Part shown: piece by piece, positions 19,552 through 46,046 of the stretch
How the letters are laid out: every line of letters starts with the position of its first letter
How positions within the stretch are numbered: position 1 is the first letter of the stretch
Assembly (NCBI GenBank): GCA_016875225.1
Contig: VGRW01000009.1
Coordinates: 1 to 64,000 of the forward strand
Length of the DNA: 64,000 nucleotides
Reading direction: 5' to 3'
Source of the DNA: Deltaproteobacteria bacterium
Lineage (GTDB): Bacteria > Myxococcota_A > UBA9160 > SZUA-336
Position numbers and translations under genes: made by a program
The notes under the pieces: generated by a model
What the model saw: the letters and a program-made list of their open reading frames with translations, nothing else
What the model was told of the DNA's origin: nothing
Databases searched by the model: none

Positions 19552-19623
19552 GCCCGTCTGTCCCGAGGCCTCGGGTGTAAAGGCCCACGCGAGCAGCTCC
19601 GATCAGGGGTGCGGAGTTCCCCG

Positions 19624-20115
19624 ATGCGACGAACACCCCCCCTGCTCGCGCTGCTCGCGCTCTGCTCCTGCGCCCCGAGCGCGGTGAACCTGGAGCGCTA
19701 TCGCGGCGCGTACAGCACGCACTTCGAACAGATCCCCGATCAGTCGGAGATCTGCGCCGTCGTGCGCAACGGAAGCGCGCGGCCGATCGAGTGGGTGGAG
19801 CTGCGAATGCGCTCCACCAGCCATCTCGCCGACGCGCCCGAGCCGTGGCGTTCGAGCTGGGTCTATCGCGGGCGCATCGAGCCCGGCCAGCGCATCTACC
19901 TGCGCTTCGAGAACCCGCCGATGGCCGACGAGATCGAGATCGCCGTGGTGCGCTTCGGCCGCGGCGAGCGCGTGCCCAGGAACGGCCGGCCCCTGCGCGC
20001 CATCGGGGAGTGCAGCGAGGAGGCGGTCCGCAGCGCGTTGCTCGCCGAGCTCGAGGATCGAGCGGCCCCCGAGATCGAGATCCGTCACGCCGCCTCCGGC
20101 GAGCTGGGGAACTAG
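19624..20115 (+). CDS. Putative lipoprotein, unknown function
   Basis: A 163-residue secreted protein. The signal peptide MRRTPPLLALLALCSCAPS has a lipobox (LCSC). The mature part looks beta-rich (EICAVVRNGSARPIEWVEL, then WVYRGRIEPGQRIYLRFENP), like a small immunoglobulin-like or fibronectin-like fold for periplasmic surfaces. I do not recognise a family. GTG 19609 would give a poorer signal, so ATG 19624 is used. Its stop shares CTAG with the stop of the convergent fusion gene. Confidence 0.65.
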   Translation: MRRTPPLLALLALCSCAPSAVNLERYRGAYSTHFEQIPDQSEICAVVRNGSARPIEWVELRMRSTSHLADAPEPWRSSWVYRGRIEPGQRIYLRFENPPMADEIEIAVVRFGRGERVPRNGRPLRAIGECSEEAVRSALLAELEDRAAPEIEIRHAASGELGN

Positions 20116-21386
20116 CGCGCTTCGGGCCCGGAGAGCGCGGCCCAGATCCGATCGGGGTCGAGCGCCGCGGCGCCGTCGAGGTGGACACGGCCGGGCGTTC
20201 CTACACCGATCGGCGTCGCGCGATGCGCGCGGGCGGGGTAGGCCAGCGCCAGGCTTCTCGCCGGGGCGCGCCGCAGCTCTCCCTCGAGTGCCGCGCGCAG
20301 GGTTTCGGGCAGACCGCCCGGCAACGCGCCGATCAGGCGGGCGCGCAGCGCCTCGGGATCGCTCGTCGCGAGTCGGCGCCGCAGCGCGAGCTCGGCATCC
20401 CGCGCGGGCGCGTCATCGGCATCGATCGCGACGACGTGGCGCACCAGAGCCGGTGAGCGAGTGGCGAGTGCGTCGGCCACGAGCGCGGCGAAGCCGGCGG
20501 CGACCAGATCGACGCGGGTGATGCGGAGCGACGTCAGCAGCTCCGCGATCTGCACGGCGACGTGCGAGGGCTCGAGCGTGCGCACCTCGCGCCGCGAACG
20601 GCCGAAGCCGGGCAGATCGACGCCGATCGCGCGCCGGCCGAGCGCCTCGGCGCGCGCGAGGATCGGCGCGAACACGCGCGCGGAGGTGCCGATGTCGGGC
20701 AGGAAGAGCACCGGCGTCGGATCGCCGGGCGATCCGTGCTCGCGGATGCCGAAGCGGGTCCCGCCGGCCTTCAGGCTGGCCGAGAGATCGTCGTCGGAAC
20801 CCGCAGCTGCTGCCGCGGAGTCGCCGCACCGCTCGAAGCGCGCGCGCAGCTTCGCCAGCGCGCTCCGCTCCAGGCCGAGGATCCAGCCGCGCGGCAGCGG
20901 AAGCGCGATCGCGCTGCCCAGATCGACCAGCGCGGGAGCGCCGCTCGGAGTCACGAGCACGTTGGTCGGGCTGCGCAGATCCAGGTAGACCACTCCGCGC
21001 CGCGCCAGCCCGTCGAGAATCGACTCGAGCGCGGCGAAGAAGCTCGTCGGGAGCGCGCGCCCGTGCGCGTGCCGGCGCAGCGGCTGCCCGTCCAGGTACT
21101 CCATCGCCAGCGCGAGACGATCGATGCGCCCGAGCAGGCGGGGAACGCCCTCGATTCCGTCGGCGCGCGCGAGCATCGCGGCCTCGTGTCGCGCGAGCCA
21201 CGGCGCGACGAACGCGCGAACCCAAGCCGAACGCCGGCCCCAGTCCTTCACGATCTGCGCTGGACCGCCGCGCTGCACCAGCAGCACGTCGGGGTTGGCG
21301 AACCCACCGAGATTCAGGACCGTGATTCCCGGACCCTCGAGGTCCGCTCGCTTCAGGACGAGAGTCCCCAGCGCACCACCATGCAC
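20112..21386 (-). CDS. Fusion of a small protein-kinase-like domain and a degenerate alpha/beta hydrolase
   Basis: About 424 residues with two domains. Residues 20-200 look like a RIO/Lipopolysaccharide-kinase-type fold: possible ATP-binding Lys47 in IVKDW, catalytic loop YLDLRSPTN (Asp136, Asn142) and a DLG metal motif near 155. Residues 210-424 are alpha/beta-hydrolase-like: VLFLPDIG, AIGVDLPGFGRS, then the nucleophile elbow AAGFA, where the usual G-x-S-x-G Ser is Gly. The hydrolase half is therefore probably inactive or binding-only. GTG 21386 overlaps the methyltransferase gene by 34 bases; CTG 21356 is an alternative. Substrate unknown. Confidence 0.7.
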   Translation of the reverse strand: MHGGALGTLVLKRADLEGPGITVLNLGGFANPDVLLVQRGGPAQIVKDWGRRSAWVRAFVAPWLARHEAAMLARADGIEGVPRLLGRIDRLALAMEYLDGQPLRRHAHGRALPTSFFAALESILDGLARRGVVYLDLRSPTNVLVTPSGAPALVDLGSAIALPLPRGWILGLERSALAKLRARFERCGDSAAAAAGSDDDLSASLKAGGTRFGIREHGSPGDPTPVLFLPDIGTSARVFAPILARAEALGRRAIGVDLPGFGRSRREVRTLEPSHVAVQIAELLTSLRITRVDLVAAGFAALVADALATRSPALVRHVVAIDADDAPARDAELALRRRLATSDPEALRARLIGALPGGLPETLRAALEGELRRAPARSLALAYPARAHRATPIGVGTPGRVHLDGAAALDPDRIWAALSGPEAR

Positions 21387-21925
21387 AGCACGCCCAGCGC
21401 GACCACGATCGCCGTGCCGGTCTCGTTGTTGTCGGCAAAGCGCGTGCGCCGCCAGGCGGTCTCGGGCGCGCGCTCGGACTCGAGCGGCCGGTAGGCGTGC
21501 AGCCGAGGCACGAGCCGCGGAACCGCCGCCGAGTAGCGCCGGTAGGCATCGCCGTAGAGCGACTCGAGCCGCGCGCTCTCGATCCGGTCCTTGTACGGCA
21601 TGTAGTAGCCGAAGTAGACCAGCAGGAAGAGCGCCGCGAAGCCGAAGGCGACCCCGCTCCAGGCCATGATCAGAAAGCCCGCCCCGATCAGAAGCGTTCC
21701 GAGATAGAGCGGGTGACGCAGATACGCGTAGGGTCCGGCGATGGTCAGGGCGTCGTTCTTGTGCAGGTGCCCGGTGGCCCAGAGCCGCAGGCTCTCGCCC
21801 GTGACGATCGGAACCGCCCCGACGAGGAGCGAGATCGGCGTGGGAGAGGACAGGAAGACCGCCGCGCCGGCGAGCGCATAGACGACGAGCAAGCGCGGGC
21901 GCAGACGTTTGCGGACGAAGCTCAC
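21353..21925 (-). CDS. Isoprenylcysteine/phospholipid methyltransferase-like membrane protein (ICMT/PEMT family)
   Basis: A 190-residue membrane protein with four to five helices. The ICMT-type signature is GPYAYLRHPLYLGTLLI (about residues 64-80), and the cytosolic cofactor-binding C-terminal half includes SLYGDAYRRY. The family methylates small hydrophobic or membrane substrates with S-adenosylmethionine. GTG 21925. Coupled to the downstream kinase-hydrolase fusion gene by overlap, which suggests a joint role in modifying a membrane lipid or polyprenyl compound (inference). Confidence 0.8.
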   Translation of the reverse strand: MSFVRKRLRPRLLVVYALAGAAVFLSSPTPISLLVGAVPIVTGESLRLWATGHLHKNDALTIAGPYAYLRHPLYLGTLLIGAGFLIMAWSGVAFGFAALFLLVYFGYYMPYKDRIESARLESLYGDAYRRYSAAVPRLVPRLHAYRPLESERAPETAWRRTRFADNNETGTAIVVALGVLCMVVRWGLSS

Positions 21926-21948: not shown

Positions 21949-22170
21949 TCAGTTTGAAAAGCGCGCGCGGCAGAGCGCGGCGAGCACGGCGCCGATCGAT
22001 TCCATCGCGCCGGGCCGCGCCTGATCGGGAAGCCGGTCGGCCGCGAGGAAGAGCGCGAAATCGCTGGCGTCCGGCGCCTCGATCTCGGACTCGACCGCCT
22101 CCCAGAAGCTGGCGCCGAAGCGCAGGCCGGCCGCCTGCCGTGGCTGCTGCGCTCTTCGCTTCTCGCCCAT
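21949..22170 (-). CDS. Small hypothetical protein
   Basis: A 73-residue soluble, acidic protein (FWEAVESEIEAPDASDFALF, then GAMESIGAVLAALCRARF). It has no recognised domain. ATG 22170 with a weak GCAGACG leader. It lies between the sigma factor and the methyltransferase on the same strand, and codon use looks coding, but a chance frame cannot be excluded. Confidence 0.45.
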   Translation of the reverse strand: MGEKRRAQQPRQAAGLRFGASFWEAVESEIEAPDASDFALFLAADRLPDQARPGAMESIGAVLAALCRARFSN

Positions 22171-22272: not shown

Positions 22273-22827
22273 CTAGAGGGCCAGGCGCTCGCCAGGAAGC
22301 TGAGCGGCCAGGGAGCGCCGAGCGCGGTAGAGGCTCGACTTCACGGCGTCTTCGCTGCGGCCGGTGAGCTGGGCGATCTTGCGGATGTTGAGCCGCTTTC
22401 CGTGGCGCAGCTCGAGCACCCGGCGCTGCTCCTCCGGCAGATTGCCGATCGCCTCGCGAACCCGGCCGAGGGTCTGGCGCGCCTGGGCCAGGGGCTCTGG
22501 ACCCAAGTCGAGCGGCGCGGCCTCCTGGGGGATGTCGTCCAGCGAGACCAGCCGCACTCCACCCCGGCGGCGCAGGCGGTTGTTCAGGATGTTCCGGGTG
22601 ATCCCGTAGATCCAGACGATCAGGTCGGACTTGCCCTCGAAGCGGTCCAGGCACGAGAAGACCGCCTCGAAGACGTCCTGGCAGACGTCCTCGGCCTCGG
22701 CCACGTCGCCGAGCCTTCGCAGCGAGAAGCTGTGGATGCGGCGAAAGTGCCGCTGGTAGAGATCGCGAAACGCGCCGGGATCCCCGGCTCGGATCGCCTC
22801 GACGATGACTCGGTCGTCCTCGGTCAC
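22273..22827 (-). CDS. ECF-type RNA polymerase sigma factor
   Basis: A 184-residue sigma-70 family factor with regions 2 and 4 only. Region 2 runs from AIRAGDPGAFRDLYQRHF through AEDVCQDVFEAVFS to WIYGITRNILNNRLRR. Region 4 has LPEEQRRVLELRH and a helix-turn-helix with SEDAVKSSLYRARRSL. GTG 22827 is preferred; GTG 22845 or TTG 22878 would extend it. No anti-sigma gene is adjacent, so the control mechanism is unknown. The 213 bases upstream (22828-23040) show no gene. Confidence 0.85.
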   Translation of the reverse strand: MTEDDRVIVEAIRAGDPGAFRDLYQRHFRRIHSFSLRRLGDVAEAEDVCQDVFEAVFSCLDRFEGKSDLIVWIYGITRNILNNRLRRRGGVRLVSLDDIPQEAAPLDLGPEPLAQARQTLGRVREAIGNLPEEQRRVLELRHGKRLNIRKIAQLTGRSEDAVKSSLYRARRSLAAQLPGERLAL

Positions 22828-23040
22828 TTTGCCGCTCGGGGACACATGCGACAGTTGCGGGAGCAATCGCCATGCCAAGCGCGGATGCGCCCGAAATCGC
22901 TGCGAGTTCGCCGAGATCGCTGGCGAATCGGGAGCAGCGGTCAGCCGCGTCGACCGGCTCCCGCGGTCGCACAGTGAAGCGGACTACCCTCTTCGGGGAA
23001 AAGAACTTCACACGCGTGCAGATCGACGCGGACCCCGGCG

Positions 23041-23520
23041 TCAGAGCTTCTCGGGCACGATCACCCAGACACCGTCGACGCGGCGCCAGACGTCGCGGCG
23101 ATCCAGGTCGATGTCCCAGAAGCGAAGCTCGCGCTCGTGCTTGCCGGTGATGACGACGTCGACCACCGCCTGCTCCGGGCCGTCGAAGTGGAACTCGCGA
23201 ATCCGCACCGACCGCGCCTGCCCGTCGCGAAGCGTGTTCTGGCGCGCCAGCGTGGCGAGCGAGGAGTAGTAGTCCGCGAAGGCCGAGGGGGTCGGGAAGT
23301 ACTGGTGCAGCTCCCGGTTGTAGAAGGTGACCGTCGCCGGCAGGGGGATGCCCTGGAGAGACTGGTAGAAGCGCTCGGCGCGCAGCGCGAATCGCATCGC
23401 CTCCTCGTCCGAGACGGTCGGCTGGGTCGCGACGGGGTCCGCGGCGCCGCCGAAGCAGGCGACCAGCACCGCCGCGGCGACGGCGGAGAGGAGCGAGCGC
23501 GGCGCCACCCCCCGCTTCAT
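23041..23520 (-). CDS. Putative lipoprotein with NTF2-like domain
   Basis: A 159-residue protein. Its signal peptide ends in LVAC, a lipobox. The mature part follows an NTF2-like pattern: helices around AMRFALRAERFYQSLQ, then strands VRIREFHFDG, QAVVDVVITG and a closing DVWRRVDGVWVIVPE. Such domains bind small ligands or serve as scaffolds. ATG 23520 overlaps the ppdK stop (ATGA), so it is translated with ppdK although no functional link is obvious. Confidence 0.65.
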   Translation of the reverse strand: MKRGVAPRSLLSAVAAAVLVACFGGAADPVATQPTVSDEEAMRFALRAERFYQSLQGIPLPATVTFYNRELHQYFPTPSAFADYYSSLATLARQNTLRDGQARSVRIREFHFDGPEQAVVDVVITGKHERELRFWDIDLDRRDVWRRVDGVWVIVPEKL

Positions 23521-45605: not shown

Positions 45606-46039
45606 GCTGGAGGTGGACGGAGGATCGCTGCCCGCGCCCGTCTTCGGACGCGCGCGGGGAGAGGAAAGTCCGGGCTCCACAGGGCAGGGAGATGGCTAAC
45701 GGCCACCGGGGGCGACCCCAGGGAAAGTGCAACAGAAATCACACCGCCAACCTGCAAACCTTCGGGTGCGCAGCGGTAAGGTTGAAATCGTGGGGTAAGA
45801 GCCCACGCGCGACAGCCGGGTGACCGGCGGCGAGGCAAACCCCTCCCGGAGCAAGCTCGAATAGGGACACTGTCGAAGACGGCCCGTCTGAATGAGTGCG
45901 CGCGGAGACGCGCGCGCTCGGAGTGTCCGGGTCTGAGTGCTCGAGCCCGCCGGCAACGGCGGGCCTAGACGAATGATCCTCGAACCACGCCCCGCAAGGG
46001 ACGCGCGGAACAGGACCCGGCTTACAGTCCACCTCCAGC
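45606..46039 (+). ncRNA. rnpB: RNase P RNA, bacterial class A
   Basis: About 434 bases forming the catalytic RNA that trims tRNA 5' ends. The ends pair as P1: GCTGGAGGTGGAC at 45606-45618 with GTCCACCTCCAGC at 46027-46039. Conserved blocks are GAGGAAAGTCCGGGCTCC near 45660, ACAGAAA near 45731, GGTAAGAGCCCA near 45794, and AGACGAATGATC with ACAGGACCCGGCTTACAG near the 3' end. Lies between a sorbosone-dehydrogenase-like gene, divergent, and a PEP-CTERM gene. Confidence 0.96.
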
Positions 46040-46046
46040 ACTTTTT
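46027..46046 (+). terminator. rnpB: rnpB 3' end with T-tract
   Basis: The 3' arm of P1 is followed directly by CACTTTTT (T run 46042-46046), so transcript release next to the P1 stem is plausible. Confidence 0.5.

Follow-up and report, generated by a model that had tools for sequence, protein, structure and literature searches.

What might be the role of a protein in which a eukaryotic-like kinase is joined to an alpha/beta-hydrolase fold lacking its nucleophile, and whose gene abuts that of a membrane methyltransferase? Such a protein is encoded once in the source assembly (a 3.87-Mb draft of 182 contigs), within the stretch of 64,000 nucleotides analysed here and hereafter referred to as the window. 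The original prediction, made from this DNA alone, was that an active kinase and a binding-only hydrolase fold, together with the methyltransferase, form an uncharacterised pair modifying a membrane lipid or polyprenol. The features of the locus are the following:

20112-21386, minus strand: kinase-hydrolase fusion open reading frame, 424 amino acids from a GTG, with an alternative start at or near the CTG at 21354-21356
20823-21356, minus strand: kinase domain of ∼180 amino acids with a short C-lobe (residues 11-188 of the 424-residue frame)
20979-20981, minus strand: codon of the putative catalytic Asp136, invariant in the kinase alignment
20115-20771, minus strand: alpha/beta-hydrolase-fold domain without a catalytic triad (residues 206-424; PF00561)
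20493-20495, minus strand: codon of Gly298, at the nucleophile position
21353-21925, minus strand: ICMT/PEMT-like integral membrane methyltransferase, 190 amino acids, with a conserved motif (GPYAYLRHPLYLGT) and about four hydrophobic segments
21949-22170, minus strand: small protein of 73 amino acids between the sigma factor and the methyltransferase, with relatives in the same place at 16 further loci
22273-22878, minus strand: ECF sigma factor (Sigma70_r2 and r4_2), syntenic class-wide
23041-23520: conserved lipoprotein-like protein of 159 amino acids, between PPDK and the sigma factor, with no Pfam family above cut-off

The fusion cannot stem from an error in sequencing or in the choice of start site, as both the architecture and the Gly at the hydrolase elbow recur in independent genomes; the Gly is found in eight of eight fused relatives, and the catalytic acid and His are gone as well. 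The reading frame is further backed by codon-position GC content, with a GC3 of 0.84-0.96 along the kinase and hydrolase halves as far as the methyltransferase gene. No hydrophobic (membrane) segment is found in the hydropathy profile of the fusion protein. At its 3′ end, the gene shares four bases (20112-20115) with a convergent lipoprotein-like gene (19609-20115, plus strand), the two overlapping at their stops.

The 5′ end is less clear. The 34-base overlap with the methyltransferase gene that had been proposed stands in part: both genes are present on the minus strand, but the overlap requires the start to be the GTG at 21386, which is shared only with a same-genus genome. Six of the nine family members, including the window (21353-21386, with loci L071, L072, L073, L075 and L076), have in the kinase frame a CTGA, in which the CTG lies over the methyltransferase stop, and one has a GTGA. 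Either arrangement corresponds to a 4-base overlap with the methyltransferase gene, and to a start near 21356. Because L071, L072 and L073 possess no ATG, GTG or TTG closely upstream of the conserved kinase N-terminus, the true start of the kinase is uncertain. The CTG overlapping the stop is a possible non-standard start, used through stop-restart, and the arrangement makes translational coupling of the methyltransferase and kinase genes plausible.

The hydrolase half is assigned to its fold by profile, matching PF00561 with 28 bits (E 2.2e-6) against a gathering score of 25.8, while five relatives reach 33-54 bits, with E values down to 2.7e-14. In the window the elbow reads LVAAGFAA, placing Gly298 where the nucleophile should be. 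The original prediction had noted this Gly in place of Ser (AAGFA) and asked whether relatives keep the Ser; no fused homologue has an intact elbow, and the eight that are readable (with the variants GHGWG, GWGFG, AAGWG, GQGWG, GLGLG and AAGFA) all carry Gly. Unfused hydrolases from the same class mostly have Ser or Asp at this position, with Phe in four and His in one. When seven fused domains were aligned against the unfused proteins, no equivalent of the catalytic acid or of the GxGH His was found, and in most fused domains the C-terminal strands are shortened or absent. With nucleophile, acid and His all lost, the domain falls outside the catalytic alpha/beta-hydrolases as these are defined by sequence (a Ser, Asp or Cys nucleophile, an acid and a His), and is therefore classed as a pseudo-hydrolase, in agreement with the catalytically dead fold that had been predicted. 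Alpha/beta-hydrolase-fold proteins that have lost the catalytic nucleophile, and are non-catalytic, are known from the neuroligins; the present domain differs from these in that all three triad positions are lost, and in its fusion to a kinase.

The four class members with Phe at the nucleophile position (L163, L175, L180 and L182) are free-standing alpha/beta-hydrolases of ∼270 amino acids from other families, with the elbow LG-x-F-x-GGM; Asp and His are kept in the three that were aligned.

A domain without its triad may simply be a relic of the fusion event, eroding and without function. This would agree with the shortened strands and with the existence of one member of only 320 amino acids, as well as with the faster evolution of this half: by the Nei-Gojobori method, on seven fused genes, dN/dS is ∼0.6 for the closest pair (0.4-1.1 over all pairs), versus ∼0.4 (0.2-0.6) for the kinase half, dS being similar between the two. 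However, as synonymous sites are near saturation and composition is biased, no more can be read from these ratios than a weaker constraint on the hydrolase half, which could reflect either slow decay or a relaxed binding role. Stops would also be expected in a half that decays freely, whereas frames of 320-477 amino acids remain open across at least six genera. The alignment of fused hydrolase domains retains 18 invariant positions, among which are the Gly and a D-L pair, and a profile of the fused domain scores its members at 243-312 bits, or at 116 and 64 where the domain is truncated (two members), versus at most 65 for any other hydrolase. I regard an eroding relic as unlikely, though worth keeping in mind.

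The origin of the domain was sought within the class, but no close unfused relative was found in 91 genomes (best score 65 bits), nor was a donor identified near succinate dehydrogenase genes, which belong to the neighbourhood of this family, in the 16 loci read. A 2005 survey of prokaryotic kinase architectures mentions a pectin esterase fusion as the only one of this kind, and no hydrolase (PMC1262709).

In contrast to the hydrolase half, the kinase half appears intact. In an alignment of 20 relatives, K47, E68, D136, N142 and D155, corresponding to the beta-3 Lys, the alpha-C Glu, the catalytic Asp, the Asn and the Mg-binding Asp that are the hallmarks of eukaryotic-like kinases, are among 22 invariant columns. 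The Lys, Asp and Asn listed in the original prediction are thus confirmed, but its DLG motif is conserved only in the Asp. On these residues, the kinase is probably catalytically active.

Which kind of kinase this is can be narrowed by profile searches, although all scores are low. The best NCBIfam kinase match, for the window protein and for its stand-alone relatives, is PRK12274 (NF008910), a family of similar length (219 positions); with 57.7 bits (E 1.2e-15) versus a curated cut-off of 372, the window protein is not a member. The protein Ser/Thr kinase family PF00069 scores 16.6 bits, and 28.8 in the best relative, against a gathering score of 31.7. No match to the Kdo/WaaP LPS kinase family PF06293 was found in the window protein, and a relative gives 11.4 bits against 21.3. 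Weak family matches include Kdo kinase, Bud32, APH and RIO. Compared with solved structures, the kinase profile retrieves mostly protein kinases, with the kinase domain of WbdD (4azw, E 1.6e-4) also among the matches. A broad search of genome contigs returned only distant protein kinases. Structure prediction from the single sequence gave a pLDDT of 35, too low for a usable model.

The activation segment and the helices G, H and I are additions specific to protein kinases, and the Kdo and RIO kinases are closest to the bare core (PMC4702295). In the stand-alone kinases, only ∼30-45 conserved residues follow the DFG position, which leaves no room for these elements and suggests that the substrate is a small molecule, a sugar or a lipid. 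By its predicted anatomy, the kinase is thus of a compact eukaryotic-like type, similar in size to Kdo, RIO and Bud32 kinases. The stand-alone proteins additionally possess a hydrophobic C-terminal stretch, of which seven alignment columns are missing in all eight fused kinases.

Across the class, the distribution of the genes was mapped in 91 genomes, of which 64 possess the kinase. A sample of 379 genomes from the phylum, searched at E <= 1e-20, yielded no kinase from any other class. Only one family has the fusion, and nine of its genomes carry the kinase; in a further family genome (G003) only a fragment matching the C-terminal part is seen, near a contig end, and in another (G004, 73% complete) the kinase was not found. 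The search for the same fusion, which the original prediction had suggested, thus finds it in independent genomes, but within this single family. In the other families, 51 of 55 loci have a stand-alone kinase, and the remaining four run off contig ends. The methyltransferase is found in 39 genomes, counting strong matches and setting aside weaker paralogues and fragments. In 36 of these, from five families, it is adjacent to the kinase and in the same direction, and in three genomes of one family it lies elsewhere, while six families possess the kinase without a detectable methyltransferase. The methyltransferase is hence tied to the presence of the kinase far more than the reverse. The proposed pairing of the two genes is borne out by their adjacency, but it is not obligatory, and methylation is not a required second step, given the six families that have no detectable methyltransferase.

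The wider gene order is also conserved, running class-wide as PPDK, the lipoprotein-like protein, one or two ECF sigma factors, the small protein, the methyltransferase where it exists, and the kinase. Because synteny across the class extends over everything between PPDK and the kinase, proximity by itself says little about a shared pathway, and the kinase and methyltransferase might belong to unrelated pathways, being neighbours by inherited gene order only. The families with a kinase and no methyltransferase would fit this explanation, but the adjacency in 36 of 39 genomes from five families does not, nor does the fact that in the family of the window the two genes overlap or nearly touch. 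Mere inheritance of gene order is improbable, though to be taken seriously.

Downstream of the kinase, the genes differ between families. Judging from names read from translations, a lipoprotein-like protein, an HCCA-isomerase-like protein and succinate dehydrogenase follow in the family of the window, and an oligoribonuclease, pilin-like proteins and an ABC transporter in others, where an oligoribonuclease-like gene is convergent with the kinase in 50 of 55 loci. None of the genes close to the kinase were recognisable as LPS or O-antigen genes. Many stand-alone kinases (L079, L084, L095, L102 and others) end in RGASRP[TM]; this tail was considered as a docking motif and rejected, because the conserved 3′ end of the oligoribonuclease-like gene, which is convergent with the kinase, runs antisense to the tail and accounts for it.

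The methyltransferase itself is recognised by PF04191 (PEMT) with 30.3 bits (E 5.9e-7) against a cut-off of 25, and falls below the cut-offs for ICMT (PF04140, 22.4 bits versus 24; NF040696, 30.9 versus 160). A profile built from 14 relatives, in the alignment of which the methyltransferase motifs are kept, matches the solved ICMT structure 5vg9 (E 2.9e-9). Among its best NCBIfam matches is LmtA, the lipid A 1-phosphate methyltransferase of Leptospira (TIGR04571, E 1.2e-7). Both are membrane methyltransferases of the ICMT type, but the window protein is shorter, and scores 31.8 bits versus a curated cut-off of 325. The similarity to LmtA and ICMT, weak and far under the NCBIfam cut-offs in both cases, is the closest lead to the membrane-lipid or polyprenol substrate that had been proposed.

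The compact kinase, combined with a methyltransferase whose nearest named relatives act on a lipid phosphate or an isoprenyl carboxylate, suggests modification of the cell envelope. This is the best reading of the locus, the step from anatomy to substrate being one that I infer. An ECF sigma factor heads the gene cluster encoding the compact kinase, which would act at the cytoplasmic face, phosphorylating an envelope molecule anchored in the membrane on one of its sugar or lipid groups. Where present, the methyltransferase may then methylate the new phosphate, or the same molecule, as a cap, which would resemble the action of the membrane methyltransferase LmtA on a lipid phosphate. The pseudo-hydrolase half, being presumably non-catalytic, would bind a ligand, the membrane or a partner, or merely stabilise the kinase. 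I put this scheme forward tentatively, as one that could well prove wrong.

The sigma factor and the small protein at the head of the cluster do not figure in the original prediction. The sigma factor suggests another role, in which the kinase is a regulatory protein kinase that phosphorylates the small protein or the ECF factor and so switches on a regulon, of which the methyltransferase is a product. Nearly all visible loci have one or more ECF sigma factors upstream of the kinase, and many have the small protein too, whether the methyltransferase is there or not; moreover, kinase-activated ECF factors are known, namely EcfP/PknT and EcfK/PknS (PMC8999054). In EcfP (group ECF43), the DAED motif of region 2.2 is absent, with Ser/Thr instead, and it is there that phosphorylation activates, while other phosphorylation-linked groups keep the motif (PMC8999054). 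Unlike EcfP, the window sigma factor and nearly all of its relatives have this acidic motif intact, as EAED, which weakens the EcfP-type version. In addition, the kinase lacks transmembrane segments and is too short to accommodate a regulatory activation segment. Action on either the sigma factor or the small protein is rather unlikely on present evidence, yet it is nearly as good a reading as that of envelope modification. The small proteins themselves form a family of 55-100 amino acids with the motif ELREFLEAD..ADP.FRERLR..LW, encoded class-wide after the one or two ECF sigma factors.

Returning to modification of the envelope, two systems offer functional comparisons. WbdD, the O-antigen terminator of E. 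coli O9a, acts first as a kinase and then adds a methyl cap (PMC3482155). The likeness, which is functional only and putative here, lies in a membrane-linked glycan being treated first by a kinase and next by a SAM methyltransferase. WbdD also carries its kinase, methyltransferase domain and coiled coil on a single polypeptide, whereas the present methyltransferase is an integral membrane protein of its own, of the ICMT/PEMT type. The second comparison, likewise functional only, is with WaaP, the LPS heptose kinase, which needs acyl-ACP as a lipid-carrying stabiliser (PMC6147952). Both would be small eukaryotic-like envelope kinases with a non-catalytic, lipid-related partner as stabiliser, but that of WaaP is acyl-ACP, and is not fused. 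It is by this analogy that the hydrolase half is proposed to act in binding or in stabilisation.

A more specific version can be formulated, in which two proteins would cap an envelope molecule with phosphate and then methyl under their own ECF control, one family having recruited a dead hydrolase as a lipid- or substrate-binding arm. As a whole this is a long shot, but if phosphate-methyl capping were true, it would extend the logic of WbdD to an integral membrane methyltransferase. The original observation thus holds, and its interpretation does so in part. In any case, the locus represents a new domain combination inside known superfamilies, and not a new kind of system. The kinase constitutes a conserved, unnamed family, limited within the phylum to one class, and in one family of that class it forms a clearly delimited fusion with an enzyme domain that is dead. 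Its fused and stand-alone forms, with or without the methyltransferase, provide a clean natural comparison for what a pseudo-hydrolase adds to a kinase.

Elsewhere in the window, an ordinary RNase P RNA of bacterial class A is encoded at 45609-46040 on the plus strand.
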